NCBI RefSeq assembly: GCF_004786015.1 | Contig: NZ_CP032096.1 | Coordinates: 2,046,001-2,110,000, forward strand | DNA length: 64,000 nucleotides | Direction: 5' to 3' | From: Hydrogenovibrio crunogenus | Lineage (GTDB): Bacteria; Pseudomonadota; Gammaproteobacteria; Thiomicrospirales; Thiomicrospiraceae | Shown: positions 1,046 to 61,206 of the stretch, one piece after another | Numbering within the stretch: position 1 is the stretch's first letter | How the letters are laid out: the number at the start of each line of letters is the position of its first letter | Translations under genes and position numbers: made by a program | Notes under the pieces: generated by a model | What the model saw: the letters and a program-made list of their open reading frames with translations, nothing else | What the model was told of the DNA's origin: nothing | The model's database searches: none

Positions 1046-1055
1046 CCAGGCCTGG
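1046..1055. repeat. CCAGGCCTGG palindromic repeat copy
   Basis: Exact 10-bp copy just after the esterase stop codon. Followed on the plus strand by CTATTTA, a weak form of the T-rich tail. No run of T strong enough to make it a convincing terminator. Confidence 0.85.
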
Positions 1056-1059
1056 CTAT

Positions 1060-1731
1060 TTATTGAATATTCAAACATTGTCGAACAAAAGCCGCCATGT
1101 CTTTTATTTCATCCAAACACACTTGATGCTGCATCGGGTAAGTGTGCCACTGAGGTTGAAATCCTAATTCCGTCAATGCTTGACGAGATTGCTCGGCAAC
1201 AAAAAATGGACAAACCGGGTCGTCCATCCCATGAGCCATAAAAACAGGGCAGCTTTTAGGTTGCATGTATTTTCCCTTGCGAGCTTCAGGATCAGGAAAG
1301 TATGTCGACAACGCCATCATCCCGGCTAATGGTTTTTCAAACGTTAAACCGGCATTCAAAATAACCACTCCTCCTTGAGAAAACCCTGCTAAGACTATTT
1401 TATCACTCTCAATGCCTGAAAAAATCTGAGATTCAATCAAATCGTGCACTACTGTGACACTCTGATCAATTCCTTCCCAATCCACATCGTGAATAAGATT
1501 TAAAGATCGAATGTCATACCATGCTGTCATTTCGCTCCCTAGGTTAACCGTGACTGGCATTTTCCTGGCTGTAGGAAAAACAAAACGAACAGAATGATTC
1601 TCAGGTAACCCAAGCTCTGGAACAATATTTTCAAAGTCATGGCCGTCTGCGCCAAGCCCATGCAACCAAATCACGCAAGCCTCGGCTTGAGCATTTGGCT
1701 CTAGAATAATCGGGGGCTGAACAGCATCCAT
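1060..1731 (-). CDS. Alpha/beta hydrolase, carboxylesterase/lysophospholipase family
   Basis: 223 residues, the usual size for the small bacterial carboxylesterase (EstB/YpfH-like) family. It shows the oxyanion region WLHGLGADGHDF (22-33), the nucleophile elbow GFSQGG with Ser118, Asp171 in GMDDPV and His202 in PMQHQV. The last motif is usually GH-[EQ]-V, so MQHQV is a small departure that keeps the histidine. It probably hydrolyses short acyl esters in the cytoplasm; the natural substrate cannot be read from sequence. AAGGA lies 8 bases before the ATG. A CCAGGCCTGG repeat follows the stop codon by 4 bases. Confidence 0.85.
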   Translation of the reverse strand: MDAVQPPIILEPNAQAEACVIWLHGLGADGHDFENIVPELGLPENHSVRFVFPTARKMPVTVNLGSEMTAWYDIRSLNLIHDVDWEGIDQSVTVVHDLIESQIFSGIESDKIVLAGFSQGGVVILNAGLTFEKPLAGMMALSTYFPDPEARKGKYMQPKSCPVFMAHGMDDPVCPFFVAEQSRQALTELGFQPQWHTYPMQHQVCLDEIKDMAAFVRQCLNIQ

Positions 1732-1873
1732 AAAACACTTCCTTATTTGATAATTGTGGTTGATGGCTATTTTAACGAAAAACCAAGCGTTATTTGCACT
1801 GCAAGGCCTTTAAAGTTTTTAATTTAACCAAGGGATAAGATAAAATAATCGCTTTACTGTTTTGGATAGTTCA

Positions 1874-2077
1874 ATGCCTTATTTATCTGTTGCGACACAA
1901 AAAAAATATTCTGCTGTTATCGTAGCTTTCTCGATCGCATTAATGACGTCTTCATTAACAGGATGCGGCAAAAAAGGACCTTTGTATTTACCGGAAACCC
2001 CTCCTGAAGAAGCCAAGGTCACTCCAGAACCAAAACAACCGCCTCAAGAACAAGAAACAGAACAGGAACAACCATGA
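1874..2077 (+). CDS. lptM: LptM-like small lipoprotein
   Basis: 67 residues from the ATG at 1874; an in-frame TTG at 1862 would add four residues but has no ribosome-binding site. A hydrophobic signal segment ends in the lipobox LTGC, followed at once by GKKGPLYLPE, the hallmark of the YifL/LptM family. The remainder is a Pro/Glu/Gln-rich tail. In E. coli LptM is an outer-membrane lipoprotein that helps LptD mature. Its stop overlaps the lysA start as ATGA, and the lptM-lysA order is conserved in many gammaproteobacteria, supporting both calls. Confidence 0.85.
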   Translation: MPYLSVATQKKYSAVIVAFSIALMTSSLTGCGKKGPLYLPETPPEEAKVTPEPKQPPQEQETEQEQP

Positions 2078-3330
2078 GTCAGAGCCCAATTTTCCATTAC
2101 CAAAACAACACGCTTCATGCCGAAGGCTGCCCCTTAGACACTCTGGCTCAAAAATACGGCACGCCATTATACGTGTATTCCCGCCAAGCATTTGAAGAAC
2201 GCTGGCGTGAATTTGATGAAGCGTTTGGCCGCCAACCGCATTTAGTGTGTTATGCAGTCAAGACCAATTCCAACATTGCAATCTTAAACCTCTTGGCCCG
2301 TTTAGGCTCTGGGTTTGATATCGTCTCTCAAGGAGAGCTTGAACGTGTTTTGCGCGCGGGTGGAGATCCTTCTAAAGTGGTTTTTTCAGGAGTCGCAAAA
2401 AAATCTTCTGAAATCGAACGAGCCCTAACAGTCGGTATTCGTTGTTTTAATATAGAATCTCACGCCGAGTTAGATCGTATTCAAGCAGTTGCCAAAAAAC
2501 TGAATAAAATCGCTCCAATTTCCATACGCGTCAACCCTGATGTAGATGCCAAAACCCATCCTTACATTTCGACTGGATTGAAAGATAACAAGTTCGGAGT
2601 CGACATCAATACTGCCCCAGCTTTATATGCTGATGCCCAAGCGCTCTCGCATATCGACATCATCGGGATTGATTGTCACATCGGTTCTCAACTTACGGAA
2701 ATCACCCCTTTCGTCGATGCGCTTGATCGAGTTTTAGAGCTTAAAAAGACCTTAACGGATCAAGGTATCAACATCCACCACTTGGATTTGGGAGGCGGTC
2801 TAGGCATTCAATACACAGATGAAACGCCGCCGGAAATCGCTGATTACATTCAGGCATTATTGAAAAAGCTGAATGATGCTTCAATTGAAGTCATTATCGA
2901 ACCGGGACGCGCCATTGCCGGTAATGCAGGGGTGTTAGTGACTGAGGTTGAATACCTTAAACCAACGGAACACAAAAACTTTGCCATCATTGATGCCGCA
3001 ATGAATGATTTAATTCGCCCCGCACTTTATCAGTCACATCAAACCATTCAACCGGTCACCCCTAGAACAGACGGTGAGGATGTTGAATGGGATTTAGTCG
3101 GTCCGGTTTGCGAAACGGGAGATTTTTTAGGGAAGCAACGTAAGCTGAACTTAAAAGCAGGCGATTATCTGGCAGTCATGTCCTCAGGCGCTTATGGCTT
3201 TACCATGAGTTCAAACTACAATACACGAACGCGCGCCGCTGAGATCCTGGTTGACCATAAACAAGCTTATGAAATTCGCCCACGGGAAACTTATAATGAC
3301 TTAATGGGAACTGAAAAACTCATCCCTTAA
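2074..3330 (+). CDS. lysA: Diaminopimelate decarboxylase
   Basis: 418 residues, a typical fold-III PLP decarboxylase. The PLP lysine is K63 in CYAVKTNSN; the glycine-rich phosphate loop HLDLGGGLGI and the EPGRAIAGNAG segment are present, and VCETGD near the C-terminus supplies the catalytic cysteine. It converts meso-diaminopimelate to L-lysine, the last step of lysine synthesis. Translation is coupled to lptM by a 4-base overlap. A strong terminator follows. Confidence 0.95.
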   Translation: MSQSPIFHYQNNTLHAEGCPLDTLAQKYGTPLYVYSRQAFEERWREFDEAFGRQPHLVCYAVKTNSNIAILNLLARLGSGFDIVSQGELERVLRAGGDPSKVVFSGVAKKSSEIERALTVGIRCFNIESHAELDRIQAVAKKLNKIAPISIRVNPDVDAKTHPYISTGLKDNKFGVDINTAPALYADAQALSHIDIIGIDCHIGSQLTEITPFVDALDRVLELKKTLTDQGINIHHLDLGGGLGIQYTDETPPEIADYIQALLKKLNDASIEVIIEPGRAIAGNAGVLVTEVEYLKPTEHKNFAIIDAAMNDLIRPALYQSHQTIQPVTPRTDGEDVEWDLVGPVCETGDFLGKQRKLNLKAGDYLAVMSSGAYGFTMSSNYNTRTRAAEILVDHKQAYEIRPRETYNDLMGTEKLIP

Positions 3331-3355
3331 TAGATAAACATTAAGCTTATAAAAG

Positions 3356-3380
3356 AGCCCCGATTATCGGGGCTTTTTTT
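3356..3380 (+). terminator. Intrinsic terminator of lptM-lysA
   Basis: Perfect 8-bp stem AGCCCCGA/TCGGGGCT with a TTA loop, followed by seven T. It lies between lysA and the converging gene at 3394. Confidence 0.9.
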
Positions 3381-3393
3381 ATAGCGTAACAAC

Positions 3394-4527
3394 TCAGAAT
3401 GACTCTTTTCCTACGAGCCATAAATGCCAGAAGCTAAGCTGTTGAGAGCTTGGTAGTTGATTCTCTGGCTGGCGAATACGGCGTATTTTAGGCATTTCAT
3501 CGTCATCCAGACCGGCTGCTTCTTCGCGCAAAACAGCCACGGCAACCCCCTCTATTTCTGCGGCCCATAAGGAAACCTTTCCGGCCTGAAAGTCGGCCCA
3601 ATCCGTTAACCAGTAATGCGACTGCAAACGACTTAATGCCATCCAAGAGGCATATTCGGTGAGCTGAACAGGTTTCTTATTTAATGTCAGTATGCCGCTG
3701 TCCCCTAACTCAAAAGACCACCAGGCCTGGTAGATTTTTTCGACATCCACCAGATACCGGCATTGACCAATTTTATTGACCTCTTCTGTAGGAAGTTGTA
3801 AAAAGGCTGCTAATCGAAAGGTATCCTCTAACTGCGCAATCATACTTTGACATTGCATTGGACGACACGGCAACTGCGCCAAGCTGACATGTAAGCGAGA
3901 GCCAATCAATTGCGGAAAACGCGCCGCCAAAGACAATGCCATTGAATTGACTCTAGGCAAGGTCTGCAAAGCTGATAACCGCGCTTCATCTAAAATACAC
4001 GTCTCAACAAATTCAGAAATTTCAGAAGTAACGTAACGCAGTCGAAGTTTGCGCAAGAATTGCACCGTTTCCTTTTTACCTGGCCAGCCCAACTGCTCAA
4101 CCACTTGCGTGCGCTTATCCTGTAACAGAGCAACAATGTCGGCTTCCGTTAATTTAGAAGCAACCAAACGCCAAGCCAACATAGGAGAATGATCCAACAG
4201 CTCCAGCAGTTGTGGATAACGCCCAACATAATGAAGCAAATGCAACTGATGGGTTGGAAACAACGCACAACTTTCCAGTACCCATGCAGGAATCTGTTTT
4301 TTCCAAAAACTGAGCTGGGAATATGACGACCACTCTAGAACAGACAGGTTTTTAGGATAATCAGGAATCGGTTCCGACCCCATCATCATCGCATCCCAAC
4401 CGGGAATCGAAAACACCCCATATTTCGGCATCCAACGACGGCAATCGACCCATAAGGTCTGCGCTTCGTCATCCCAAAAACAGTGTTTCGCAAGTTGCCT
4501 TTCTTGTGTGGACAATACGGGTTTCAT
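3394..4527 (-). CDS. Protein of unknown function
   Basis: 377 residues without a signal peptide, membrane segment or family motif that I recognise. It is rich in Trp and Leu, with a helical central part (about 90-260) that looks like a repeat-type or all-alpha fold. The C-terminus carries an acidic stretch (GLDDDEMPK) followed by a basic one. It lies 9 bases downstream of rlmI on the same strand and is probably co-transcribed. Codon use resembles the neighbours, so it is likely a resident gene. A CCAGGCCTGG copy inside it encodes QAW. Confidence 0.7.
   Translation of the reverse strand: MKPVLSTQERQLAKHCFWDDEAQTLWVDCRRWMPKYGVFSIPGWDAMMMGSEPIPDYPKNLSVLEWSSYSQLSFWKKQIPAWVLESCALFPTHQLHLLHYVGRYPQLLELLDHSPMLAWRLVASKLTEADIVALLQDKRTQVVEQLGWPGKKETVQFLRKLRLRYVTSEISEFVETCILDEARLSALQTLPRVNSMALSLAARFPQLIGSRLHVSLAQLPCRPMQCQSMIAQLEDTFRLAAFLQLPTEEVNKIGQCRYLVDVEKIYQAWWSFELGDSGILTLNKKPVQLTEYASWMALSRLQSHYWLTDWADFQAGKVSLWAAEIEGVAVAVLREEAAGLDDDEMPKIRRIRQPENQLPSSQQLSFWHLWLVGKESF
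3721..3730. repeat. CCAGGCCTGG copy inside a gene
   Basis: Exact copy within the unknown gene at 3394-4527, encoding Gln-Ala-Trp on the coding (minus) strand. The plus strand continues TAGATTTTTT, the T-rich tail. Confidence 0.85.
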
Positions 4528-4536
4528 GAAACGACC

Positions 4537-5733
4537 TTACCAGCTTTTAGACACTTTAAAGAAAAAGGTTTTAATATATTCCGTTTCCGGAATCGCCGGA
4601 TGAATAGGGTGATCGGGACCTTGATGCCCTTGCTCGAACATTTGAATGTTGCGATCAATATGGCGAGACGCTAGTTGAATCTGTTGTAACAAAGCATCTC
4701 GGCTCATATGATGTGAGCAGGAAGCCGACACCAAAATGCCGTCAGTATTTAGCAGACGCATCGCCAACTCATTGATACGACGATAGCCATCAGCTCCGGC
4801 TTTAAAATCTTTTTTACGCTTAACAAATGCCGGTGGATCCACAATCACCACATCATATTTATGCGCTTCAGTTGCCAGCGCTTTTAAGACATCAAATGCA
4901 TTTCCTTCAATCGTGATGACTTTTTCTGCCACACCGTTGAGTTCGGCATTACGGTCCACACCATCCAAAGCAAAAGTAGAGGCATCAACACACGTCACTT
5001 CTTTCGCTCCCGCCACGGCAGCCTCAATCCCCCAGCCGCCCAAATAACTGAACACATCCAAAACGGTTTTATCTTTAACAAAGTCCTGCAAACGTCCTCT
5101 CGCTATACGATGGTCATAGAACCAACCGGTTTTTTGTCCATCCTCTGTCGGGATGGCAAACTTAGCACCATTTTCTTCAATTACAATCTCGTCCGGTAAT
5201 GGCCCGATGGCGACTTCAGTATAGAGTGAAAGCCCCTCCAACTCTCGACTAGGGCTATCATTTCTCAATACCAACGCTTGAGGGTGATATAAATTCTCAA
5301 TGGTCTGCACCAATTCCTCTTTTAAAGCTTCCATGCCAGCTGTAGTAATTTGTGCGACAAAAACATCGCCGAAACGGTCAATCACCAACCCTGGCAAACC
5401 ATCTGACTCACCAAACACCAAACGATAAAAGGGCGCATCAAAATTCGCTTCACGCAATGCTTGTGCTGCTTGAATCCGCTTCTTTAAAAATGCTTGGTTA
5501 AACTGCACTTTCGGGTTGCGACTCAATAAACGACCACAAATCAGAGTATTCGGATTAACATAAGCCACCCCTATGGCCTTACCATTAGCTGCTTCAACCG
5601 TGACAACCTGACCGGCTTCAAAATTTTTCAAAGGCGAGACCTGATTGTCAATTTCATTACTGAAAATCCACAAATGACCCTGCTTTAAGCGCTTATCTTC
5701 GTTTTTCTTTAATCTTATCGCTGACATAGTCAT
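4537..5733 (-). CDS. rlmI: 23S rRNA (cytosine-C5) methyltransferase, RlmI family
   Basis: 398 residues, close to E. coli RlmI (396). An N-terminal PUA-like domain (LKQGHLWIFSNEI) precedes a central RNA-binding part and a Rossmann methyltransferase: FSYLGGWGIEAAVAGA binds S-adenosylmethionine, VDPPAF is motif IV, and SASCSHHMS holds the catalytic cysteine. RlmI makes m5C1962 in 23S rRNA. The start ATG at 5733 has CAGGAG 7 bases upstream. A long hairpin with a T-run sits just before that site. Confidence 0.88.
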   Translation of the reverse strand: MTMSAIRLKKNEDKRLKQGHLWIFSNEIDNQVSPLKNFEAGQVVTVEAANGKAIGVAYVNPNTLICGRLLSRNPKVQFNQAFLKKRIQAAQALREANFDAPFYRLVFGESDGLPGLVIDRFGDVFVAQITTAGMEALKEELVQTIENLYHPQALVLRNDSPSRELEGLSLYTEVAIGPLPDEIVIEENGAKFAIPTEDGQKTGWFYDHRIARGRLQDFVKDKTVLDVFSYLGGWGIEAAVAGAKEVTCVDASTFALDGVDRNAELNGVAEKVITIEGNAFDVLKALATEAHKYDVVIVDPPAFVKRKKDFKAGADGYRRINELAMRLLNTDGILVSASCSHHMSRDALLQQIQLASRHIDRNIQMFEQGHQGPDHPIHPAIPETEYIKTFFFKVSKSW

Positions 5734-5748
5734 GCTTTCTCCTGAAAC

Positions 5749-5803
5749 AAAAAGGGCATGTGGATGAAAAAGATGGTTTGCATCTCCTCATCTCGCACGC
5801 CCT
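5749..5803 (-). terminator. Nested hairpin with T-run between gcvH and rlmI
   Basis: On the minus strand, AGGGCGTG pairs with CACATGCCCT (one mismatch), enclosing GATGA/TCATC and an inner GATG/CATC. The stem ends in CCC followed by five T. Its base is about 7 bases before the rlmI Shine-Dalgarno. It would end gcvH transcription or attenuate read-through into rlmI. Confidence 0.5.
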
Positions 5804-5888
5804 CATTGTTAATACATATTGACGTATATCTAAACGACGATACGCCTTTACTCCCTTAGCAAACAATACTTGAGCTAAGTGAACTTAA

Positions 5889-6275: not shown

Positions 6276-6421
6276 CGTGATTCTCCCACTAAATAAAGGG
6301 TGATAAAGTTGCCAGCATTGGCCTCAAAGCTGGCGCTGTAAAATAAAAAGAATGATACCAAAAATTGGCTGAAAAAACTTTTTTCATCCCCAAAAGCATC
6401 CGGAAAAATAGAATGGCAATC

Positions 6422-6447
6422 AAAAAAACAGCCAGGCCTGGCTGTTT
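6422..6447 (-). terminator. Terminator of the diguanylate cyclase gene, built on a CCAGGCCTGG copy
   Basis: A perfect 22-bp palindrome (11-bp arms, AAACAGCCAGG/CCTGGCTGTTT, no loop excess) centred on CCAGGCCTGG at 6432-6441, followed on the minus strand by seven T. It lies 24 bases after the stop codon at 6471. Confidence 0.85.
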
Positions 6448-6470
6448 GGACAAGACGGGAATTAACGAAT

Positions 6471-8357: not shown

Positions 8358-8483
8358 TATAAGTAGTCAATAATTTTCTTATTTTTTAAAGCAGATGTCC
8401 AATAAAACACCCCTTATTAAAAATAAGGGAATTTAATACACCTCTATTCGTTTCATATTCTCAACATTCGTTGAAAGACGACT

Positions 8484-12387: not shown

Positions 12388-12412
12388 AAAACAACCAGAC
12401 CTGGTCGTTTTT
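12388..12412. terminator. Hairpin between arsJ and folM, near-copy of the repeat
   Basis: AACAACCAG/CTGGTCGTT around CCAGACCTGG (12395-12404, one change from the repeat core). T-rich on both sides: six T on the plus strand, four on the minus strand. Likely ends or weakens arsJ transcription. Confidence 0.6.
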
Positions 12413-15349: not shown

Positions 15350-15379
15350 GCAAAAACAGCCAGGCCTGGCCGTTTTCAA
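15350..15379 (-). terminator. Intra-cluster hairpin on a CCAGGCCTGG copy
   Basis: On the minus strand AACGGCCAGG pairs with CCTGGCTGTT (one G-T pair) and is followed by TTTTTG. The exact core is 15360-15369. It lies between the permease and the fusion gene and probably reduces read-through within the arsenic cluster. Confidence 0.7.
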
Positions 15380-17516: not shown

Positions 17517-17870
17517 GTGACCCTAGATAATACCGCCCGTCTTTTTAAAGCCCTTTCCGAACCGCTAAGATTACGCATCCTTGCATTGTTACTGCAAAGA
17601 GACACCTTATGCGTTTGCGATCTCGTCACCGTTCTCGAACAAGGCCAAAGTACCATCTCACGCCACCTTAACTATCTGAAAAATGCAGGCCTGGTCAATT
17701 CTTGGCGAGAAGGCACTTGGATGCATTACCAAATCGAACACCACGCCCTTTCTTTACTGAACTTGACCGAGCTTCAAACTTTGTTGAAGGCAACGCCTGA
17801 ATGCCAGAGCGATTTGGTCGCGTTAGAAAAATACGAAATCCATCCTCGAAGCTGCCAATCGACCTCTTAA
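17517..17870 (+). CDS. arsR: ArsR-family arsenic-responsive repressor
   Basis: 117 residues with a GTG start. Winged-helix sequence LSEPLRLRILALL, then TLCVCDLV with the arsenite-binding pair C32/C34, then the recognition helix QSTISRHLNYLKNAGLV. A third ligand could come from the C-terminal cysteines (PECQ, SCQ). It would repress the divergent cluster until trivalent arsenic binds. The Shine-Dalgarno is poor. A CAGGCCTGG copy inside encodes GLV. Confidence 0.92.
   Translation: MTLDNTARLFKALSEPLRLRILALLLQRDTLCVCDLVTVLEQGQSTISRHLNYLKNAGLVNSWREGTWMHYQIEHHALSLLNLTELQTLLKATPECQSDLVALEKYEIHPRSCQSTS
17686..17694. repeat. CAGGCCTGG copy inside arsR
   Basis: Nine-base core followed by TCAATTCTT; encodes Gly-Leu-Val. 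Confidence 0.8.
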
Positions 17871-19323: not shown

Positions 19324-20317
19324 ATCAATTCCTGTCACCTTGGTGACGGGCCTGCTTGGCAGTGGTAAAACCACTACCATTCACCATCTGCTTGAGCACA
19401 AACCCGCGCACGAAACTTGGGGGCTGCTCATCAATGAATTTGGTGAAATCGGTATTGATGCCGCCACCCTTAATCTTGATAGCGATGTCATCGAGGCCGT
19501 TTCCGGCGGATGCATTTGCTGTAGCGCTCAAATGGGCTATCAGCAGGCTTTGCAATCGTTATTAAAACACCCGCTTGACCGCATTCTCATTGAGCCAACT
19601 GGATTGGGACACCCCGCTAAAATCATTGATACCCTCAGAGCATTCCAACCCCAAATTCATCTTGCTGGCATCATCTGCTTAATCACCCCCGCTCAACTGA
19701 CCCCGAAACGCTGGCAAAAATCCGCTGTGATGCGAGACTTAATTCATTTGGCTGACACCATTTTGCTGAACAAAATCGATACCGCTTCCTCTGAAGAGAT
19801 TCAACAAGCCAAAACGTTGTTACAGAGCGTTTACCCTCCGAAAGAAAACATCCTCCTCACACAATTCGGAGACTTTGCCGAAAAGCAGCCAGGCCTGGTC
19901 GATTTTAAACAAACCCAAGCGCCTTTCACTTTGCTGGAAGGGCTGAACGAACATACTGAACAAACCCAGCATACGCCAATTGACTATCAATCCTCCCTGC
20001 CACATTGCTTAAACATTCAGGTACAGATTGGCGTCACCAGCACGATTGGTTGGCAATTCAGTCCACAAGTTCAATTCAATCGAATTCGGTTCAAAGAATT
20101 CATCAGCCAACAACCCAACTTGATTCGCGGTAAAGGCATTTTAAGAACGGGCAATGAATGGCAACTGTTCAATCAAATCGATGACCAAATCACCTTGGAA
20201 GACATCGCTTGGCGCCAAGACAGCCGTTTGGAACTTATCTACCAAACCGACATCAGCGACCAACTGCAACACATCGAAACCGAGCTACAAAAAGCCCTGC
20301 TGATTCGAGACAAATAA
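19307..20317 (+). CDS. COG0523-family GTPase metallochaperone (CobW/ZigA-like)
   Basis: 336 residues. Walker A GLLGSGKTT (16-24), the metal motif GCICC (C69, C71, C72), the switch region EPTGLGHPAK and the guanine motif LNKID are all present, followed by a CobW_C-like domain. These GTPases deliver zinc or another metal to client enzymes. The next gene is folE2, a known partner in zinc-limitation loci. Its 17-base overlap with mqo implies coupled translation. A repeat copy inside encodes GLV. Confidence 0.88.
   Translation: MEKTSKSIPVTLVTGLLGSGKTTTIHHLLEHKPAHETWGLLINEFGEIGIDAATLNLDSDVIEAVSGGCICCSAQMGYQQALQSLLKHPLDRILIEPTGLGHPAKIIDTLRAFQPQIHLAGIICLITPAQLTPKRWQKSAVMRDLIHLADTILLNKIDTASSEEIQQAKTLLQSVYPPKENILLTQFGDFAEKQPGLVDFKQTQAPFTLLEGLNEHTEQTQHTPIDYQSSLPHCLNIQVQIGVTSTIGWQFSPQVQFNRIRFKEFISQQPNLIRGKGILRTGNEWQLFNQIDDQITLEDIAWRQDSRLELIYQTDISDQLQHIETELQKALLIRDK
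19889..19898. repeat. CCAGGCCTGG copy inside the COG0523 gene
   Basis: Exact copy with tail TCGATTTTAA; encodes Pro-Gly-Leu-Val. Confidence 0.85.
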
Positions 20318-21457: not shown

Positions 21458-21483
21458 AAAAACGCCCAGGCCTGGGCGTTTTT
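21458..21483. terminator. Bidirectional terminator on a CCAGGCCTGG copy
   Basis: Perfect 26-bp palindrome, core 21466-21475, with T-runs in both directions. It serves folE2 and the converging PIN-like gene, whose stop codon begins one base further on. Confidence 0.9.
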
Positions 21484-24423: not shown

Positions 24424-24452
24424 AAAACCGCCAGTCCTGGCGGTTTTTTTTC
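24424..24452 (+). terminator. leuA terminator
   Basis: 11-bp stem around ACCGCCAG/CTGGCGGT followed by eight T. The centre CCAGTCCTGG (24431-24440) is one base from the repeat. Confidence 0.9.
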
Positions 24453-25424: not shown

Positions 25425-25434
25425 CCAGGCCTGG
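25425..25434. repeat. CCAGGCCTGG copy after cnoX
   Basis: Exact copy, 13 bases after the stop. On the minus strand it continues GGTTTTTTATC. Confidence 0.85.
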
Positions 25435-30697: not shown

Positions 30698-31318
30698 ATG
30701 GCTCGCCAGAAACACAATACAACGGCACTAAAAATTCGTGATACAGCAACCGATATGTTCGCTGAAAAAGGCTACGATGGCACCATAATGGACGAATTAA
30801 CCATTCGATCAGGTGTTAATAAAGCCAGCATTTATTATCACTTCCAAGACAAGTCGAACCTCTATGAACAATGTTTAACACACCTATTCGGCAACGTTGC
30901 CGATGCGGTGATTGAAGCCACCGAACATGCCACGACGGATACCTTAAAACTGGAAGCGTTCGTCAAGACATTTGCAAAACTAGCACATGACACCCCCGCA
31001 ATGCCTGCAATTCTCATGCGAGAAATTGCGTCTGGTGGCCACAATATGCCTGTCACTGCTCGGCAACAAATGCAACGATTACTGTCGAATCTGAAAGCCA
31101 TTTTAAGTACGCGACCTTTTTGCCAACACATTGAATCTATCAATCCTCTGACGCCACATTTTATGATTATCGGCAGCTTGTGTTTTTATCTGACAAGCCA
31201 GCCAATGCGAGACCATATTGAAAGCACTGAAAAACTTGATCCAACATTGGATGACTTTACCCAGCAACTGATTCAGATTCTGCAATCAGGCCTGGTCAAA
31301 AAAACAAAGGAGAGCTAG
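30698..31318 (+). CDS. TetR-family repressor
   Basis: 206 residues. The N-terminal helix-turn-helix is clear (DTATDMFAEKGYDGTIMDELTIRSGVNKASIYYHF). The rest is a helical ligand domain of unknown specificity. The stop is 1 base from the ATG of the cytochrome gene, so the pair is one operon. The tandem operator upstream suggests self-control. A repeat copy at the 3' end encodes GLV. Confidence 0.92.
   Translation: MARQKHNTTALKIRDTATDMFAEKGYDGTIMDELTIRSGVNKASIYYHFQDKSNLYEQCLTHLFGNVADAVIEATEHATTDTLKLEAFVKTFAKLAHDTPAMPAILMREIASGGHNMPVTARQQMQRLLSNLKAILSTRPFCQHIESINPLTPHFMIIGSLCFYLTSQPMRDHIESTEKLDPTLDDFTQQLIQILQSGLVKKTKES
31287..31295. repeat. CAGGCCTGG copy at the end of tetR
   Basis: Nine-base core; encodes Gly-Leu-Val. 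Followed by TCAAAAAAA, so the T tail is absent on this strand. Confidence 0.75.
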
Positions 31319-35383: not shown

Positions 35384-35412
35384 TTAAAACCGCCAGGCCT
35401 GGTTATTTTTGA
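35384..35412 (-). terminator. Terminator of pyrC on a CCAGGCCTGG copy
   Basis: AACCAGG/CCTGG with CGGTTTT on the minus strand; exact core 35393-35402. The plus strand reads TTATTTTTGA after the core, the repeat tail. 23 bases beyond the stop at 35425. Confidence 0.6.
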
Positions 35413-35424: not shown

Positions 35425-36759
35425 TTAACTGCGATCAAATGACAATCTCTGTCCCGGAGTAAACTCGGAAAACTGCCCTTGATGATATTTAATTTCTCCA
35501 TTGACAATGGTTGTCATCACGCTCGATTTAAAGGTATGCCCTTCCCACGGAGACCAGCCACACTGATACAGGTTATCTGCTTTGTTGTCGGTGTGCGGCT
35601 TATTCATGTCTACCAACACAATATCCGCCGCATAGCCTTCTCGAATATAACCACGGTCTTTAATTTCATATCGAATGGCGACATTATGCGCGGTTTTCTG
35701 CACAACAGTTTCTAAATCAAACACCCCCTGATGCACCATATCCAACAATGCCGTTAACGACTGTTGAACCTGCGGCAAACCGGCCGGAGCGGTAAAATAG
35801 GTATTTTGCTTTTCTTCCCATGTATGTGGGGCATGATCTGTTGCGATAATGTCAATTCGGCCTTCTCTTACCGCTTGACGAACCGCGTCGCGATCGGATA
35901 TTTTTTTGATCGCCGGATTACACTTGATTAAACTGCCTTTGGTTTCATAATCTTCTTCGGCAAACCATAGATGGTGCACACAGGCTTCTGCGGTAATCTT
36001 TTTACCTGCGACCGGGCCTGGTTCGAACAAAGCCATTTCTTCAGCGGTCGTCAAGTGCAATACATGTAAATCTGCCCCCGTTTTTTTCGCCAGATCCACA
36101 GCAAAAGAAGATGATTTGTAACAGGCTTCGCGGCACCGGATATCAGGATGGTATTTCATCGGGACATCCTCACCATACTTTTCACGGTAAATCGCTTCTT
36201 GCGCTTGAATCATCGGGGTATCTTCACAATGCGTGGTAATCAATGTCGGGCTATGGGTAAAAATATCGGTTAACGCTTTTTCACGATCGACCAACATATT
36301 TCCTGTGGATGCTCCCATGAATATCTTAACCCCGCACGCTTGATTAGGGTCTAACGCCTTCACTTCTTCGATATTGTCGTTAGTGGCACCCAAATAAAAT
36401 GAATAATTGGCCCAAGAGGTTTTAGAAGCCAAGTCAAACTTCGCTTCAAGATTCTCAAGCGTCGTCGTGGTTGGTTTCACATTCGGCATGTCCATAAACG
36501 AAGTGGTTCCGCCAGCAATGGCCGCTTTTGATTCTGTTGCAATACTGCCTTTGGCTGCAAAACCAGGATCTCTGAAATGCACCTGATCATCAATAAAACC
36601 AGGCAATAAATGCTGACCTTGGGCATCGATAACGGTATCGGCTGAAACGTCTAATTTCGGCGCAATTTGTTGAATCAAGCCGTCTTTGATTAAAACATCG
36701 GCTTCAAAAATTTTACCTTCATTCACAACTTTGGCTTGGGTAATTAGAATCGTTTTCAT
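35425..36759 (-). CDS. pyrC: Dihydroorotase
   Basis: 444 residues, the longer class I-like type. The metal motif DDQVHFRDPG, GVKIFMGAST region, HCED and the late ATDHAPHTWEEK are intact. It interconverts carbamoyl-aspartate and dihydroorotate in pyrimidine synthesis. pyrE lies 7 kb away. Allantoinase is the nearest alternative but the motif spacing favours dihydroorotase. Confidence 0.9.
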   Translation of the reverse strand: MKTILITQAKVVNEGKIFEADVLIKDGLIQQIAPKLDVSADTVIDAQGQHLLPGFIDDQVHFRDPGFAAKGSIATESKAAIAGGTTSFMDMPNVKPTTTTLENLEAKFDLASKTSWANYSFYLGATNDNIEEVKALDPNQACGVKIFMGASTGNMLVDREKALTDIFTHSPTLITTHCEDTPMIQAQEAIYREKYGEDVPMKYHPDIRCREACYKSSSFAVDLAKKTGADLHVLHLTTAEEMALFEPGPVAGKKITAEACVHHLWFAEEDYETKGSLIKCNPAIKKISDRDAVRQAVREGRIDIIATDHAPHTWEEKQNTYFTAPAGLPQVQQSLTALLDMVHQGVFDLETVVQKTAHNVAIRYEIKDRGYIREGYAADIVLVDMNKPHTDNKADNLYQCGWSPWEGHTFKSSVMTTIVNGEIKYHQGQFSEFTPGQRLSFDRS

Positions 36760-39591: not shown

Positions 39592-41100
39592 ATGACAGAC
39601 ACGACTGAATCACAGAACATTTATGCCGCAATCGACCTTGGCTCCAACAGCTTTCACATGATGGTCGCCCGTGAAGTGCACGGACAACTCCAGGTTATTG
39701 ACAAGCATAAAGAAATGATTCGACTTCGCTCTGGGCTGGATAAAAAAGGCTACCTGACTCCGGAAGCCTTTCAAAACGGAATTGAATGTTTAGAACGTTT
39801 TGGACAACTGATTAAAAAAATTCCCGGTCATCAAGTTCGTGCTGTTGGCACCAATACCCTCCGTAATGCCAAAAACAGTCAAGAATTTTTAAGGCAGGCA
39901 CGCAAGGCTCTTGGACATGAAATTCAAATCATCGCAGGGCAAGAAGAGGCTCGTTTGATTTATTTAGGGGTTGCGCACGGATTACCACAAAACGATGAAC
40001 AACGTTTGGTGATGGACATCGGAGGCGGAAGCACGGAATACATCATTGGTAAAAACTTTAATTACCGACACTTAACCAGTACCGAAATGGGCTGTGTCAG
40101 CATCACTCAGCAGTTCTTTTCAAAACCTGAAATCACTGAAAAACGAATGACTAAAGCCATTTCCAATTGTCGGCAAATCTTACGCCCTCATTTAACCAAA
40201 CTGACCAGCTTAGGATGGGACAGTGCTATTGGAGCCTCCGGTAGCATCAAGTCGATTGGCACGCTGCTCAAAGAGAATGGCTGGACGGAAGGAGAGATCA
40301 CGTTAGAAGGCATGCTAAAACTGAAAGATGCCTTGCTTCAGGCTGGCTCCATTCAAGCCGCCAGTTTACAAGGCCTCAAAGAAGAACGGATCCCTGTTCT
40401 GGCCGGTGGCTTGGCCATCTTAATCGCGACTTTTGAAGAGCTAAAAATTGCACAAATGCAGGTTTCTTCCAATGCTCTCCGAGAAGGTCTGGTATTTGAT
40501 ACCTTAGGGCGCCTGTTCGCAGAAGATGTTCGTGAAACCAGTGTTGCAGCTGCGCAGGCCTGGTTAAAAATTGATACCGAACAAGCCGAAGCGATTGCGC
40601 ATACCAGCAAAATATTTTATAAGCAGGCACATAATATTTGGCAGCTCCATGATGCGGACTACAACTACAAAAAACTCTTGAACTGGGCGGCTCAATTGCA
40701 CGAAGCAGGTATGGCGCTGAGCTATAAACGCTACCGTCATCACAGTGCATATTTAATTGAAAATTCAGAATTAGCCGGATTTACTCAGCAAGAAAAACAA
40801 ATGTTGGCGACCATGCTTCTGAATCACCGTGGTAAATTCGTGCCGGAAGCTTATGAACGGTTTGCCTCACCGCATAAAGAAAAACTGAAATATCTCACGG
40901 TGTTATTGCGTCTGGCGGTTCGAATCCACCGAGGAAGGGAAAAAGATATTCCGGACATTTTGCTTTACACAACAGGTGAAAAGACCATTCATTTATCCTT
41001 TGAAAAGGATTGGTTAAAAGCTCACCCGCTGACACAAATGGACTTGGAAGTGGAAGCTGAACGTTTAGCCGGCGCTGATTTCACCCTGACTTACGAATAA
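39592..41100 (+). CDS. ppx: Exopolyphosphatase (Ppx/GppA family)
   Basis: 502 residues from ATG 39592 (an upstream TTG lacks a ribosome site). Actin-like ATPase motifs AAIDLGSNSFHMMVAR, MDIGGGSTEY and GASGSIKSIGTLL; the C-terminal half is the HD-type domain. It releases phosphate from polyphosphate; GppA activity on pppGpp is also possible. Partner of ppk. Confidence 0.92.
   Translation: MTDTTESQNIYAAIDLGSNSFHMMVAREVHGQLQVIDKHKEMIRLRSGLDKKGYLTPEAFQNGIECLERFGQLIKKIPGHQVRAVGTNTLRNAKNSQEFLRQARKALGHEIQIIAGQEEARLIYLGVAHGLPQNDEQRLVMDIGGGSTEYIIGKNFNYRHLTSTEMGCVSITQQFFSKPEITEKRMTKAISNCRQILRPHLTKLTSLGWDSAIGASGSIKSIGTLLKENGWTEGEITLEGMLKLKDALLQAGSIQAASLQGLKEERIPVLAGGLAILIATFEELKIAQMQVSSNALREGLVFDTLGRLFAEDVRETSVAAAQAWLKIDTEQAEAIAHTSKIFYKQAHNIWQLHDADYNYKKLLNWAAQLHEAGMALSYKRYRHHSAYLIENSELAGFTQQEKQMLATMLLNHRGKFVPEAYERFASPHKEKLKYLTVLLRLAVRIHRGREKDIPDILLYTTGEKTIHLSFEKDWLKAHPLTQMDLEVEAERLAGADFTLTYE
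40555..40563. repeat. CAGGCCTGG copy inside ppx
   Basis: Nine-base core; encodes Gln-Ala-Trp. Tail TTAAAAATTG. Confidence 0.75.
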
Positions 41101-41108: not shown

Positions 41109-42206
41109 TTAATAGACATCCAACTGAACGCGACGCTGCTTTTTCCAGTCATGCCAAAGCGCTTCAGCCGCTTCTTCTGTCATCCCGCCTTCGGTTTGTA
41201 GAATCGACAGCATAATTTCTTCGACAGAGGTTTTCAGTCGCGTTTTATCGCCACACAAATAGAAAAAAGCACCTTGCTGCAAGAGAGCCCAGATAGCTGA
41301 TCGCTCTTCCCATAATCGGTCCTGAACATACACTTTATGCGCTTGATCTCGGGAAAATGCCGTTCTTAACTGAAGCCCTGCCGCTTTCCATTGAGCCATC
41401 ATGTCTTTAAACAAATGGCTTTTTTCTTCATGGGTTTCACCAAAGAATAGCCAGGCCTGGTGGTTTTTAGCCAACTTTTCATCCAAAAACCATTCTTGTA
41501 AAAACCCAATAAAAGGCGCTACCCCAGTACCCGAGCCGACCATAATGACCGGGGCATGTTGTGCCATCGACTCTTCCAATGCAATAGGAAGTTTAAAATT
41601 ACGGTTTTTACTCAGAGCCACATCAATCTGGTCACCGGCTTCCAGTTCGCTTAAAGCGGTGGTCACCACACCTTTTCGTGCACGGTTTTCTCGTTCAAAA
41701 AAGACCTTTCGGTATACTAAATCAACCCGGTTTTCTCCCACCGCTTTCGGTGCAGAGGCAATCGAATAATAACGAGGCGCTAAAGGCGTTAATAGATTAC
41801 ACACATCAACACCTTTTAAGAAAGGATACGCTTCAAGTAAATCCAAGATATCGCGCCCTTCGGCATACGCCATCATCTCAGCGCGGTCGGCCCAGTCATT
41901 CAAATCATATTGTCTTTTGAGCTTGTTGAGAATGGCGGGATTAAGTTGCGTTAACTCTAAATGATAATGTAAGGCTTCTTTGACCGGCATCTCCCCAAAC
42001 CGTCTCAGTTCAATGAGTTCATTGCCTGACAAGTCGAGCTTTTCTAACACCATCGCCACCATTTCAGGCGAGTTTTCAGCCGAAACCATCAACCAATCCC
42101 CTGGCAAATAGCCCAAAGGGACTTCCGTTTCCAGCCCAATATGGTAAACATCTTTTTCAGGGTGACTCGGGGTCAGCAATTCATTAAACAAAACGGTCGC
42201 TTGCAT
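41109..42206 (-). CDS. CysJ-like FAD/NADPH reductase without flavodoxin domain
   Basis: 365 residues. FAD-binding PRYYSIAS, the KGVVTTALSEL phosphate motif, NADPH motif VGSGTGVAPFIGFLQEW, YLCGDKTRLK and the C-terminal aromatic DVY match the reductase half of sulfite reductase alpha subunit. The N-terminal flavodoxin domain of CysJ is absent. It should transfer electrons from NADPH to an unknown acceptor. It converges with ppx (8 bases apart). A repeat copy inside encodes QAW. Confidence 0.8.
   Translation of the reverse strand: MQATVLFNELLTPSHPEKDVYHIGLETEVPLGYLPGDWLMVSAENSPEMVAMVLEKLDLSGNELIELRRFGEMPVKEALHYHLELTQLNPAILNKLKRQYDLNDWADRAEMMAYAEGRDILDLLEAYPFLKGVDVCNLLTPLAPRYYSIASAPKAVGENRVDLVYRKVFFERENRARKGVVTTALSELEAGDQIDVALSKNRNFKLPIALEESMAQHAPVIMVGSGTGVAPFIGFLQEWFLDEKLAKNHQAWLFFGETHEEKSHLFKDMMAQWKAAGLQLRTAFSRDQAHKVYVQDRLWEERSAIWALLQQGAFFYLCGDKTRLKTSVEEIMLSILQTEGGMTEEAAEALWHDWKKQRRVQLDVY
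41451..41460. repeat. CCAGGCCTGG copy inside the CysJ-like gene
   Basis: Exact copy with plus-strand tail TGGTTTTTAG; coding (minus) strand reads Gln-Ala-Trp. Confidence 0.85.
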
Positions 42207-52531: not shown

Positions 52532-52541
52532 CCAGGCCTGG
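52532..52541. repeat. CCAGGCCTGG copy before yajQ
   Basis: Exact copy. On the minus strand it is followed by TCATTTTAGGAG, so the T-rich tail runs into the yajQ ribosome site. Confidence 0.85.
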
Positions 52542-57754: not shown

Positions 57755-59077
57755 ATGGATCACTCTCAGATGAAGTCAACGCATTATCAATCTAATAGTT
57801 TAACGTTAACCGGTGCGGTCGCCATGGGAACAGGCGTCATGATTGGGGCCGGTATTTTTGCCTTAACAGGACAAGTTGCAGAACTGGCCAAAAGCTGGTT
57901 TCCATTAGCCTTTCTGGCCGCCGCCATTGTCGCTGGTTTCAGTGCTTATTCCTATGTCAAAATGGCTAACGCCTATCCATCTGCCGGCGGCATTGCGATG
58001 TTCCTCAAAAAAGCCTATGGCAAAACCGTCATGACCGGAGCCGGCGCTTTATTGATGTACTTTTCCATGGTCATCAATGAAAGTTTGGTCGCGAGAACGT
58101 TTGGTACCTACACCATGGAGCTATTTGATGCGAACCAATATCCCGAGTGGGTTATTCCAGCGTTAGGGGTCGCCCTATTATTCTTTGCTTTTCTCATCAA
58201 TATCCTAAGTAATCGCTTTATCGAACGCTTTTCTTTTTTTATGGCGTTCATCAAAATTGCAGGCCTGGTCGTTTTTGCATTAGCCGGCTTATGGGTTTCT
58301 GGTTTATCTTTTGAAAGCATTTCGGCCGCCCCGCCGTCAACATCAAGCAGTACCGATTTCTTGGGAGCGGTTGCGTTGGCGGTATTGGCTTATAAAGGGT
58401 TTACCACCATCACGAACAGTGGTGGCGAAATTGAGTATCCTCATACAAATGTCGGACGAGCCATTATTATTTCGATTTCACTTTGTCTGACTTTATATAT
58501 GTTGGTAACGTTTTCGATAGGGGCGAACCTGAGCATTGAAGAAATCGTTCAAGCGAAAGACTATGCTTTGGCAGAAGCCGCCAGACCTGCCTTTGGTGAT
58601 GCAGGGCTATGGTTTACCGTTATTTTCGCAATCGTCGCCACAGTGTCCGGCGTCATTGCCAGTGTCTTTGCGGTAAGTCGAATGTTAGCCATGCTGACCG
58701 AAATGAAGCTGGTGCCCCATCGCCATTTTGGTATGCCGGGCGATCTCCAAAAACATACCTTGGTATACACCATTGTCATTGCAATGCTCCTCACGATATT
58801 TTTTGATCTCAGTCGCATTGCTGCCTTAGGCGCAATCTTTTATATCATCATGGACATCGCCATTCATTGGGGAGTGCTACGCTACCTTCGAGAGGAAGTG
58901 AAGGCCAGTACCGCGATTTTAATAACGGCAATCGTTTTAGACATCATCATTCTCATCGCATTGATTGCAGTTAAATTTCAAACGGATCCTTTCGTCATCT
59001 ATGCTGCCCTAATCGGCTTAGCGTTGATTTTTGTCGGAGAAAGACTCTTTTTAAGTCATCAACGCAAGGCGTCATAA
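57755..59077 (+). CDS. APC-superfamily amino acid permease
   Basis: 440 residues with about 12 membrane segments. MGTGVMIGAGIFALTGQVAE is the family's unwound helix 1. AAGGA lies 4 bases upstream. Substrate not predicted. A repeat copy inside encodes GLV. No operon partner. Confidence 0.85.
   Translation: MDHSQMKSTHYQSNSLTLTGAVAMGTGVMIGAGIFALTGQVAELAKSWFPLAFLAAAIVAGFSAYSYVKMANAYPSAGGIAMFLKKAYGKTVMTGAGALLMYFSMVINESLVARTFGTYTMELFDANQYPEWVIPALGVALLFFAFLINILSNRFIERFSFFMAFIKIAGLVVFALAGLWVSGLSFESISAAPPSTSSSTDFLGAVALAVLAYKGFTTITNSGGEIEYPHTNVGRAIIISISLCLTLYMLVTFSIGANLSIEEIVQAKDYALAEAARPAFGDAGLWFTVIFAIVATVSGVIASVFAVSRMLAMLTEMKLVPHRHFGMPGDLQKHTLVYTIVIAMLLTIFFDLSRIAALGAIFYIIMDIAIHWGVLRYLREEVKASTAILITAIVLDIIILIALIAVKFQTDPFVIYAALIGLALIFVGERLFLSHQRKAS
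58260..58268. repeat. CAGGCCTGG copy inside the APC permease gene
   Basis: Nine-base core with tail TCGTTTTTGC; encodes Ala-Gly-Leu-Val. Confidence 0.8.
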
Positions 59078-59085
59078 AAACTGGC

Positions 59086-59095
59086 CAGGCCTGGT
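59086..59095. repeat. CCAGGCCTGG copy after the APC permease gene
   Basis: Exact copy 8 bases after the stop, tail TTGTTTTGGC. May act as a weak terminator stem. Confidence 0.85.
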
Positions 59096-59172
59096 TGTTT
59101 TGGCACCCTTAGCCTGGCCTAAAGCGCTTTATAAAAACGATACAAAAGAGTTCTAAATCAAACTTCAAGACA

Positions 59173-59204
59173 AAAAAAAGCCCGTTAAATAACGGGCTTT
59201 TTTA
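59173..59204. terminator. Bidirectional terminator
   Basis: AAAAAAAGCCCGTT/AACGGGCTTTTTT stem, AAAT loop, T-rich in both directions. Serves the APC permease and the converging BCCT gene. Confidence 0.93.
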
Positions 59205-59223
59205 TTGCCATACGTCAATGAGA

Positions 59224-61206
59224 TTAACGCAACACGTGCAAGAAATGCATATGTTTATGGTAATGATCAATAATATCATGAATGATCGCCTGCTTTGACC
59301 ACCCCATCACATCATAGTCCTGTCCGCCTTCACGTAAATGAATTTCAGCACGATAATAACGCGCCGATTCATCCATTTCGTCCATCGACGTTTCAACCTG
59401 AGTAAACTCCGGCTTCAAATGCGAACGACTGCGAACTTCATAAATAAAGTCAGTCTCTTCACCGTGGCGAACAATTAAACGGACTCGGTCATTCTCTTTT
59501 TCATTTTCGACCAACACATCCAACTCTTGTGCTTTAAGTTCTTCAGCCACCTCTTCGCAAGCTGGGCGAGCCACACTTTGAATATAACGACTCACGACGG
59601 ATTTACTTGGGTAATCAACGATATTATGTAACCGCTCTTTCCAATTGCCATCCGTGGTCGCAGGTGGCGTCGGCGCGACATTCATCTGCAAACTTTCACG
59701 CTTAGCAATGTCGACCCTTAACGCCATAATCAAACCATAAGTGGCAATTAATAGCACAATGGAAAAGGGTAATGCACTGGCAATCGTTAATGTCTGTAAA
59801 GCACCCAACCCTCCAGCAAGCAAGAGAATTGCAGCAATCAATCCAACTCCGATGACCCAGTAAAGTCTTTGCCAGATGGGGGTATCATCTCGGCCATTTG
59901 AACACAACATATTCACCACCAACGCACCGGAATCGGCTGATGTAACGAAAAAGATAATCACCATTAAAATCGCGATAAACGACAGTATTGAACCAAAAGG
60001 AAATTGATCCAAGAAAGCAAACAAAGCGATGGCAACATCATTCGATACGGCTTTTCCTAAACTATCCAATCCACCATTCAAAATCATATCGATGGCGGAA
60101 TTCCCGAAGAAAGTAAACCACATCATACTGAAACCAATCGGCACAAATAGAACCCCGGTTACGAATTCACGGATACTGCGTCCTCGCGAAACACGGGCAA
60201 TAAAAAGACCGACAAAAGGCGCCCATGCTAACCACCATGCCCAATAAAAAATCGTCCAACCCCCAATCCAATCTGTCTTTTCATAAGCAAAAAGATTGAA
60301 AGTCACTCGAACAATGTCAGATAAATAGGTTCCGGCATTCTGAATTAAAGCTTGCATCAAGAAAATGGTTGAGCCTAAAAACAATACCAGCAACATTAAA
60401 ATGACTGCCAAACTCATATTCAGCTCTGATAGACGGCGAATCCCTTTGTCTAACCCCGTTACCACTGAAACAGCCGCTAAGGCGGTCACAGCTGCAATTA
60501 ACACCACCTGGGTAATCACACCGATAGGCACTTCAAATAAATAATTTAACCCTGTATTCATTTGTAGTACCCCATACCCTAATGAGGTGGCGATACCGAA
60601 TACCGTACCAATAACCGCAAATACATCCACTGCATGCCCTACTGGTCCATAAATGCGTTCACCAATCAAAGGGTATAAAGCAGAACGCATGGTTAAAGGC
60701 AGTCCATGACGATAACTAAAAAACGCTAAAATCAATGCCACAATCGCATAGATCGCCCAGGCATGTAACCCCCAATGGAAAAAAGTGATTTTCATGGCCT
60801 CACGAGCGGCTTCAACCGTTCCCGCATCACCGACAGGTGGTGACAAGAAGTGCATCACCGGTTCAGCAACCCCGAAAAACATAAGCCCGATTCCCATACC
60901 GGCAGAAAACAGCATTGAAAACCAGGTAATTTTAGAATAATCCGGCGAGGCATGATCGGGACCTAACTTGATATCGCCATAACGGGAAAGCCCAAGAAAG
61001 ACCACCGTGATTAAAATAATAGCAACCGTTAAGACGTAAAACCAACTGCCATTATCAACAATGATATTTTGTAAATGGCTGAAAGCGCCGTCCGCTTGTT
61101 GTGGAAAAACAGCGGCATACAACAACAGTAAAATAACCAGGCCTGAGGCGGTAAAAAAGACAGGGGGGTTCAATCGTGCTTGCTCTGCAGTGGAGGATTG
61201 TTTCAT
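59224..61206 (-). CDS. BCCT-family transporter (choline/betaine type)
   Basis: 660 residues with about 12 membrane segments (about 12-500) and a long cytoplasmic C-terminal domain (about 510-660), as in BetT. GMGIGLMFFGVAEPV and the aromatic FYWAWWLAWAPFVG box are the BCCT signatures. It would import choline, betaine or a related quaternary amine for osmotic protection. The porin gene lies 70 bases upstream on the same strand. A near-copy of the repeat (61137-61146, read on the minus strand) encodes SGLV. Confidence 0.9.
   Translation of the reverse strand: MKQSSTAEQARLNPPVFFTASGLVILLLLYAAVFPQQADGAFSHLQNIIVDNGSWFYVLTVAIILITVVFLGLSRYGDIKLGPDHASPDYSKITWFSMLFSAGMGIGLMFFGVAEPVMHFLSPPVGDAGTVEAAREAMKITFFHWGLHAWAIYAIVALILAFFSYRHGLPLTMRSALYPLIGERIYGPVGHAVDVFAVIGTVFGIATSLGYGVLQMNTGLNYLFEVPIGVITQVVLIAAVTALAAVSVVTGLDKGIRRLSELNMSLAVILMLLVLFLGSTIFLMQALIQNAGTYLSDIVRVTFNLFAYEKTDWIGGWTIFYWAWWLAWAPFVGLFIARVSRGRSIREFVTGVLFVPIGFSMMWFTFFGNSAIDMILNGGLDSLGKAVSNDVAIALFAFLDQFPFGSILSFIAILMVIIFFVTSADSGALVVNMLCSNGRDDTPIWQRLYWVIGVGLIAAILLLAGGLGALQTLTIASALPFSIVLLIATYGLIMALRVDIAKRESLQMNVAPTPPATTDGNWKERLHNIVDYPSKSVVSRYIQSVARPACEEVAEELKAQELDVLVENEKENDRVRLIVRHGEETDFIYEVRSRSHLKPEFTQVETSMDEMDESARYYRAEIHLREGGQDYDVMGWSKQAIIHDIIDHYHKHMHFLHVLR

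Follow-up and report, generated by a model that had tools for sequence, protein, structure and literature searches.

A palindromic word dispersed over the Hydrogenovibrio crunogenus chromosome is probably the core of an uptake-sequence-like mark

Introduction

The 10-bp palindrome CCAGGCCTGG recurs along a stretch of 64,000 nucleotides of the Hydrogenovibrio crunogenus chromosome (bases 2046001-2110000 of 2,453,259; hereafter the window, its genome being G000), which raises the question of what such a word could be for. The original prediction, made from the window alone, had taken it for a genome-wide signature with a specific role. We show here that the word is truly over-represented throughout the genome, and that it is a member of a set of lineage-specific spellings. 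It probably forms the core of a watermark of this bacterial family, one that would work like an uptake sequence. Judged by its spelling, it is not a DNA uptake sequence (DUS) or an uptake signal sequence (USS) by descent, because no word found here equals, by eye, GCCGTCTGAA or AAGTGCGGT.

Such uptake preferences are described for two families only, with AT-tracts and a spacing of about 1 kb (Mora et al., 2020; PMC7811141). In the account of Frye et al. (2013; PMC3630211), the Neisseriaceae have 10-mer DUS dialects, intragenic copies, inverted pairs at terminators and some members without obvious DUS. Uptake sequences within terminators of the two families are reported by TerminatorNet (PMC13020248), intragenic biases are described in PMC2346458, a scarcity of primary DUS in genomic islands is mentioned as already noted in PMC7371117, and the PpdA/ComN pilin is proposed as USS receptor in PMC12616744. 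Among the matches listed for open-licence PubMed Central (PMC), we found no paper tying an uptake sequence to Thiomicrospira, Thiomicrorhabdus, Hydrogenovibrio or the mannose-sensitive haemagglutinin (MSHA) pilus, prior print being possible, and none relevant by title for the text string CAGGCCTG.

Results

Abundance of the word

The 11 exact copies claimed for the window are all present, one of them at 59085 instead of 59086, as are four copies of CAGGCCTGG (claimed at 17686, 31287, 40555 and 58260) and four near-copies with one mismatch each (12395, 24431, 36012 and 61137). The word was rightly called far over-represented: dinucleotide-shuffled versions of the window hold a mean of 0.03 copies and a maximum of 1, and CCAGGCCTGG is the top 10-mer of the window by strength. 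It is also the top 10-mer across 554 kb of the genome, with 75 occupied 1.5-kb bins against 0.53 expected from an order-4 Markov model (z 94). The whole chromosome contains 367 copies, the reversed control word being counted 0 times, and a 464-kb sample composed of the window and 20 evenly placed stretches contains 63, for an order-4 Markov expectation of about 0.43 (the palindrome count over both strands, 126 vs 0.87, being halved). The copies thus lie far above expectation, inside and outside the window and in related genomes as well, which supports a genome-wide signature; its role is proposed below from sequence comparisons. Inner substitutions are scarce among the variants of CCAGGCCTGG, the end bases and the central G-C pair (to A-T) varying most.

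Position of the copies relative to genes

Placement was analyzed for 76 sampled copies of G000, using gene calls from a simple codon-usage caller made for the analysis. The word is found in both coding and intergenic DNA, as uptake sequences are: 39 copies are intergenic and 37 coding, although 84% of the DNA is coding (P 1e-12), and about 0.4 coding copies would be expected. Among the intergenic copies, 28 of the 37 with a measurable distance sit at most 60 bp past a stop codon. Convergent gaps hold 16 of 38 intergenic copies but only 13% of the intergenic bases (P 1e-5), and divergent gaps hold one of 38. The first 100 listed copies are spaced more evenly than expected by chance, with a coefficient of variation of 0.78 and no gap below 1 kb among 99 (12.9 expected). 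The even spread on both strands described in the original prediction must be amended: strand has no meaning for a palindrome, and the copies favour the few tens of bases past stops. Regular spacing is not general, as some copies of a relative of the same genus (G005) are only 228-341 bp apart. In the first 700 kb of G000, the closest pair among the first 100 listed copies is at least 1.1 kb apart.

The bias toward gene ends and convergent gaps could mean that the word is merely the standard intrinsic-terminator hairpin of many genes, and in the window three of eight exact copies between genes do form a hairpin with a U-run behind it (z -1.7, -2.3 and -3.7). The five others make no terminator, and about half of the sampled copies lie within genes, where the non-palindromic dialects of relatives retain their T-tract (see below). 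A terminator moreover depends on complementary arms and does not call for the same word throughout a species. All this makes the terminator explanation quite improbable. A consensus scan of bases 1-20000 of the window detected no excess over shuffles of either promoter-like (37 vs 35.3) or terminator-like sequences (23 vs 21.6), so that the scan alone missed the link with gene ends; a promoter-site reading was set aside.

Lineage-specific spellings

Over 62 genomes of the family, CCAGGCCTGG is present in 106-856 copies in 27 genomes and in 0-44 copies in the other 35. In the genus itself (11 genomes), seven genomes including G000 have 367-677 copies and four have 0-1. These four bear sister words, CCCAACCTGGYAGATTTT in G001 and G010, CCCAGCCTGGYAGATTTT in G004 and CCACCCCTGGCGATTTTT in G008, so that all apparent negatives of the genus are accounted for, and CCnnnCCTGG with a T-tract is common to all its dialects. 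Two of the words were confirmed by whole-genome counts: CCCAACCTGG occurs 400 times in G001, 364 times in G010 and at most 7 times in each of the other 60 genomes, and CCCAGCCTGG 326 times in G004, the other 61 genomes having at most 11 copies each. Clustered repeats masked the words of G010 and G004 in a plain k-mer ranking; counting occupied 1.5-kb bins revealed them.

The remaining words rest on samples of 100-205 kb. The top word of G008 is CCACCCCTGG; in another genus, G043 has CCCGGCCTGT with TTGAGTTT, and G047 has a palindrome as well, ACCGGCCGGT. G016, which is GC-rich and belongs to a further genus, carries GGGGGTCCCCGACTTTT and a second T-tract at 13 places in 140 kb. The family thus holds at least six spellings, related between sister species with one per lineage, as in known uptake sequences. 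Sampling covered 12 of the 35 low-count genomes, eleven with at least 80 kb and G012 with 20 kb. The top 10-mer has a z of 28-94 in ten carriers, versus 7.6-8.9 in G050, G018 and G051 (of the genus of G043 and G047) and G017.

We also scanned the loci of one window gene in seven relatives (Thiomicrorhabdus, Thiotrichales and one distant Bowmanella). The Thiomicrorhabdus cannonii locus (11 kb) has four CCGGCCTGT and zero CAGGCCTG; conversely, CAGGCCTG occurs three times in Thiomicrorhabdus sp. zzn3, four times in Milos-T2 and five times in one Thiotrichales metagenome-assembled genome (MAG), a second such MAG having two CCGGCCTGT. The Bowmanella locus has one copy of each of two words, and the Thiomicrorhabdus NP51 locus (7 kb) has none of six words.

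The full word and its respelling in place

Orientation can be read in the non-palindromic dialects, where the full word measures 18 bp. Each flank position of CCCAACCTGGYAGATTTT except Y is conserved in at least 86% of sites (36 in G001, 31 in G010), the flank of CCCAGCCTGGYAGATTTT in at least 91% (33 G004 sites), and that of CCACCCCTGGCGATTTTT with its second T-run in at least 76% (33 G008 sites); conservation stops after about 18-26 bp. The T-tract is retained inside genes, with a mean of 3.8-4.15 T of 5 in 33 in-gene copies of G001, G010, G004 and G008. In the palindromic dialect (AGG) either arm can bear the tract, and the better arm matches at least 5 of 7 template positions in 60 of the 76 sites of G000, versus 276 of 4000 random positions that were not matched for setting. 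An AT-tract beside the core, a trait of USS, is therefore present, G016 included. As the arms differ among AGG species (GTTTTT in G000, GGATTTT-like in G002 and G009, TCAA-like in G005, G006 and G041, with a weaker consensus of 0.4-0.95 per base), they may have sub-dialects too. Strand counts are 198/166 in G010, 205/195 in G001 and 184/142 in G004 (P 0.10, 0.65 and 0.02), a bias that is weak at most, unlike that of an oriented replication signal.

Sites of the non-palindromic dialects are frequently arranged in inverted pairs at most 60 bp apart, such as AAAATCTGCCAGGTTGGGG...CCCCAACCTGGTAGATTTT: 10 of 36 in G001, 12 of 31 in G010, 8 of 33 in G004 and 10 of 34 in G008 (40/134). Inverted pairs at gene ends, another trait of uptake sequences, are thus found in these four genomes, and the palindromic dialect pairs with itself. 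A single palindromic copy could serve as a terminator stem as an inverted pair does, because a palindrome is its own inverted repeat.

The region orthologous to 10-30 kb of the window is mostly collinear across the genus and allows the same site to be followed. In a CobW-like gene, the codons QPGLVDF of G000 (CCAGGCCTGGTCGATTTT) correspond to PPGLVDF in G002 and G009 (AGG), PNLVDF in G001 and G010 (CAA) and PSLVDF in G004 (CAG). The site is thereby occupied, each time in the genome's own spelling, in 6 of the 10 orthologs compared; G007, G005, G006 and G008 have no copy at these codons, G005 and G006 having copies elsewhere in the gene, and no ortholog was obtained from the region fetched for G003. 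Likewise, the gap following folE2 holds an own-dialect copy in 8 of 11 genomes (G000, G002, G009, G007, G003, G010, G004 and G008), the others being G005, which has CCAGCCTGG and not its word, G006 and G001. As other gaps hold a copy in only part of the species, sites are also gained and lost.

These data bear on two further explanations. The word could be a restriction-modification or methylation site, or an iterated palindrome like HIP1 of cyanobacteria, as suggested by the perfect palindrome of the AGG species and of G047. Palindromy would then be conserved with function; however, the corresponding places in sister species are taken by an 18-bp word that has a T-tract and is no palindrome. 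Palindromy is thus, on this comparison, not the key property of the word. Half of the copies are moreover intergenic and mostly 3'-placed. HIP1 is also highly iterated, but palindromy is dispensable here, and we know of no T-tract, dialects or 3'-end preference for HIP1. A methylation or HIP1-like role appears very improbable. Alternatively, copies could be mobile palindromes spread by a transposase, resembling repetitive extragenic palindromic (REP) elements or miniature inverted-repeat transposable elements. REPs are longer and extragenic, whereas 37 of 76 copies here lie inside genes and the conserved length is about 18 bp. In-place respelling at one codon is not transposition. Dispersed palindromes at 3' ends are what both have in common, many palindromic copies at gene ends being reported for REPs and bacterial interspersed mosaic elements (PMC2817692). 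Such an origin hardly deserves consideration.

The order of the changes can be proposed from a midpoint-rooted tree of the 11 genus members, built on 14 concatenated proteins (one gene mixes paralogs, one is the CobW-like gene, and G003 and G007 are incomplete). The CAA, CAG and ACC dialects form one clade (support 1.0). The palindromic AGG spelling is probably ancestral, as it lies outside this clade and is also present in three other genera; a route from CAG to CAA is a guess.

Competence and pilus genes

In G000, ComEC/Rec2, a PilT/PilU-family ATPase and MshL, the secretin of an MSHA-type pilus, score above curated cut-offs. One ATPase has an MshEN domain, and gene order and sub-cut-off matches indicate Tad and type II secretion systems. 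It has four PF00437 ATPases, the fourth in the type II operon; the three scanned stay below the PilB cut-off, so that no canonical PilB is evident among the four, and none of the seven prepilin matches in G000 was conspicuously PilA-like. ComEA is found in all 11 genus genomes (10 above cut-off) and matched in 53 of the 62 family genomes. One of three counted words reaches at least 100 copies in 30 genomes, and 29 of these have ComEA, all but G056 (82% complete). This machinery permits an uptake reading and does not prove it.

Three consecutive minor-pilin-like genes (L048:3393-6653), near MiaB (89%), diverge fast (42-53% identity between G000 and G001) and are possible receptor candidates. 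The minor pilins P1-P3 are present in 10 of 11 genus genomes, P1 being partial in G005 and G006 and the G003 contig ending there. P1-P3 evolve fast, as many surface proteins do, so we claim no co-variation of pilin and dialect. By isoelectric point, GspH (9.26) and GspI (9.16) stand out, weakly.

Copy-free islands and viral records

The largest gap among the first 100 listed copies, 39 kb, includes a ribosomal-protein operon region (L003). A 21-kb copy-free gap includes an island with TniB, TniQ, Mu-type transposase and methylase genes (L002:2416-20000, about 222416-240000 of G000:C1), and the first 14 kb of a second island-like stretch (L007) are copy-free as well. Together, island DNA has 0 copies in 31.9 kb vs 4.8 expected (P 0.008, islands being chosen after seeing the gaps). 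The first island comes after a YifB/ComM-type gene that is cut short, covering profile positions 2-378 of 499. Since ComM aids transformation, this strain may transform poorly. Among 2.9 million viral records (IMG/VR), three contain exact CCCAACCTGGYAGATTTT once each (L182, L183 and L184; 35.6, 14.3 and 39.0 kb), within phage-like genes, by eye, in both of two inspected, and none contains the own-type word CCAGGCCTGGTCGNTTTTT.

Elsewhere in G000, a unit of exactly 306 bp is repeated directly about 18-19 times at L001:5462-10983, which probably encodes a giant repeat protein, and a 12-bp unit stands in 28 head-to-tail copies at L015:6026-6361.

Sites in the window

The sites of the window are listed in Table 1, with the interrupted MshL genes of two relatives. 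In the same window, a GAPDH gene (13635-14657) scores above the cut-off for the ArsJ-associated family and adjoins, by eye, a transporter-like gene; the two are likely an arsenic detoxification pair.

Table 1. Copies of the word and near copies in the window, and broken MshL genes in related genomes.
Feature	Position	Setting	Fold, flank or remark
CCAGGCCTGG	1046..1055	just past stop of - strand gene 1060-1731	no terminator fold
CCAGGCCTGG	3721..3730	within - strand gene 3394-4527	flank GGTAGATTTTTT
CCAGGCCTGG	6432..6441	past stop of - strand gene 6471-8357	9-bp stem, GGCC loop, then T-run
Near copy CCAGACCTGG	12395..12404	past stop of - strand gene 12431-13627	
CCAGGCCTGG	15360..15369	past stop of - strand gene 15393-16352	hairpin, then U-run
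GCAGGCCTGG (9/10)	17685..17694	between listed genes	short + strand helix-turn-helix open reading frame, by eye
CCAGGCCTGG	19889..19898	within CobW-like gene 19307-20317 (+), codons QPGLVDF	other dialects at orthologous codons in G001, G010, G004
CCAGGCCTGG	21466..21475	between convergent folE2 (20493-21440, +) and 21484-22137 (-)	hairpin -15.2 kcal/mol, z -3.7, then U-run
Near copy CCAGTCCTGG	24431..24440	past stop of 22791-24419 (+)	
CCAGGCCTGG	25425..25434	14 bp past stop of 24512-25411 (+)	terminator fold on neither strand
TCAGGCCTGG (9/10)	31286..31295	near 3' end of TetR-like gene 30698-31318 (+)	gene named by eye
CCAGGCCTGG	35393..35402	past stop of 35425-36759 (-)	no terminator fold
Near copy CCGGGCCTGG	36012..36021	within 35425-36759 (-)	
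GCAGGCCTGG (9/10)	40554..40563	within 39571-41100 (+)	
CCAGGCCTGG	41451..41460	within 41109-42206 (-)	flank GGTGGTTTTT
CCAGGCCTGG	52532..52541	between divergent 52029-52514 (-) and 52695-53885 (+), a rare setting	terminator fold on neither strand
GCAGGCCTGG (9/10)	58259..58268	within 57755-59077 (+)	flank GGTCGTTTTT
CCAGGCCTGG	59085..59094	8 bp past stop of 57755-59077 (+)	no terminator fold
Near copy CCAGGCCTGA	61137..61146	within 59224-61206 (-)	
MshL gene	G041:C1:1755518-1756388		stop or split between frames
MshL gene	G047:C1:2177308-2178176		stop or split between frames

Discussion

Our results describe one short word, over-represented genome-wide, with spellings that differ between lineages. 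We favour an uptake-like role: the structural features compared here agree with those of known uptake sequences, the exceptions being the spelling, a lower density and an island depletion that is tentative. A DNA-binding pilin of an uptake pilus would prefer the word, the pilus would retract with PilT, and ComEA and ComEC would import the DNA. Recombination of the preferentially imported DNA would then keep the word enriched, in one spelling per lineage.

Several observations weigh against such a role. At one copy per 6.7 kb, the word of G000 is sparser than the uptake sequence of Haemophilus, for which about 1 kb is quoted (PMC7811141). The presence of the mark cannot be predicted from machinery genes: ComEA is also found in 24 of the 32 genomes below 100 copies of the three counted words, ComEA and MshL are matched in G050, G018, G051 and G017, whose samples of 80-120 kb show no dominant word, and G016 lacks a ComEA match despite its USS-like word. 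Two carriers with dense marks, G041 and G047, have an interrupted or split MshL, and the carrier G067 (86% complete) has no MshL match, which weighs against the MSHA pilus as the importer there. In G043 the flank is weaker, with 53-71% per base over most of the tract, and the sampling reached 12 of the 35 low-count genomes. Finally, the share of intergenic exact window copies that fold as terminators is small (3/8), and the island depletion was noticed post hoc.

The other explanation to be weighed is a chromosome-organising or other cytoplasmic DNA-binding protein that reads the word, its specificity drifting by lineage and the sites following. The genome-wide and fairly even spread, the regular spacing and the lineage-specific spelling would suit a nucleoid protein, and the palindromic core would suit a dimer. 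The position of copies just past stops, the avoidance of divergent gaps and the inverted pairs do not fit, nor does the existence of sampled family members without any dominant word. The 20 sampled stretches of G000 show no cluster, with 0-5 copies each (mean 2.6, variance 2.1), the origin and terminus not being located. Furthermore, we know of no such protein whose sites are respelled in place within a genus, which also counts against it. We consider this explanation unlikely, though less so than a terminator, methylation or mobile-element origin.

The uptake-like mark shares features with each of the two known systems. Like the DUS of Neisseriaceae, which has ComP as receptor, it is an abundant 10-mer with sister spellings, found in and between genes, with inverted pairs as potential terminators and with some members lacking it (PMC3630211). 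It differs in its word, which by eye is not GCCGTCTGAA, in that the dialect of G000 is palindromic and has a T-tract, and in that it belongs to another bacterial group, in which we list candidate minor pilins and identified no ComP; carriers have 106-856 copies, versus 943-5918 listed for DUS (PMC3630211). Like the USS of Pasteurellaceae, it has a core followed by AT-tracts, with two T-tracts 10-15 bp apart in G008 and G016, and it would share the use in terminators (PMC13020248). The USS core is however AAGTGCGGT (PMC13020248), and the mark described here is sparser, with at least six spellings in the family.

A more far-reaching proposal, which we put forward tentatively and hold to be somewhat less probable than its opposite, is that of a third, independently evolved uptake-sequence system, in bacteria resembling free-living sulfur oxidisers. 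The ancestral palindrome with its T-tract would have been respelled repeatedly (CAG, CAA and ACC in one clade of the genus, CCGGCCTGT and CCGGCCGG in another genus), receptor and genome having co-evolved each time, and the receptor would be located on an MSHA-type pilus or a type II secretion pseudopilus, not on a classical type IVa pilus.

Strong uptake preference is described for two families whose members mostly inhabit mucosal environments, and how it arose is presented as debated (PMC7811141). If our reading is true, apparently free-living sulfur bacteria would be a third case, and competition with host DNA would lose weight as a general cause. The dialect switches, that of a palindrome turned asymmetric among them, could serve to find receptors by co-variation, and our reading would name the tag to add to DNA for transforming these chemolithoautotrophs.

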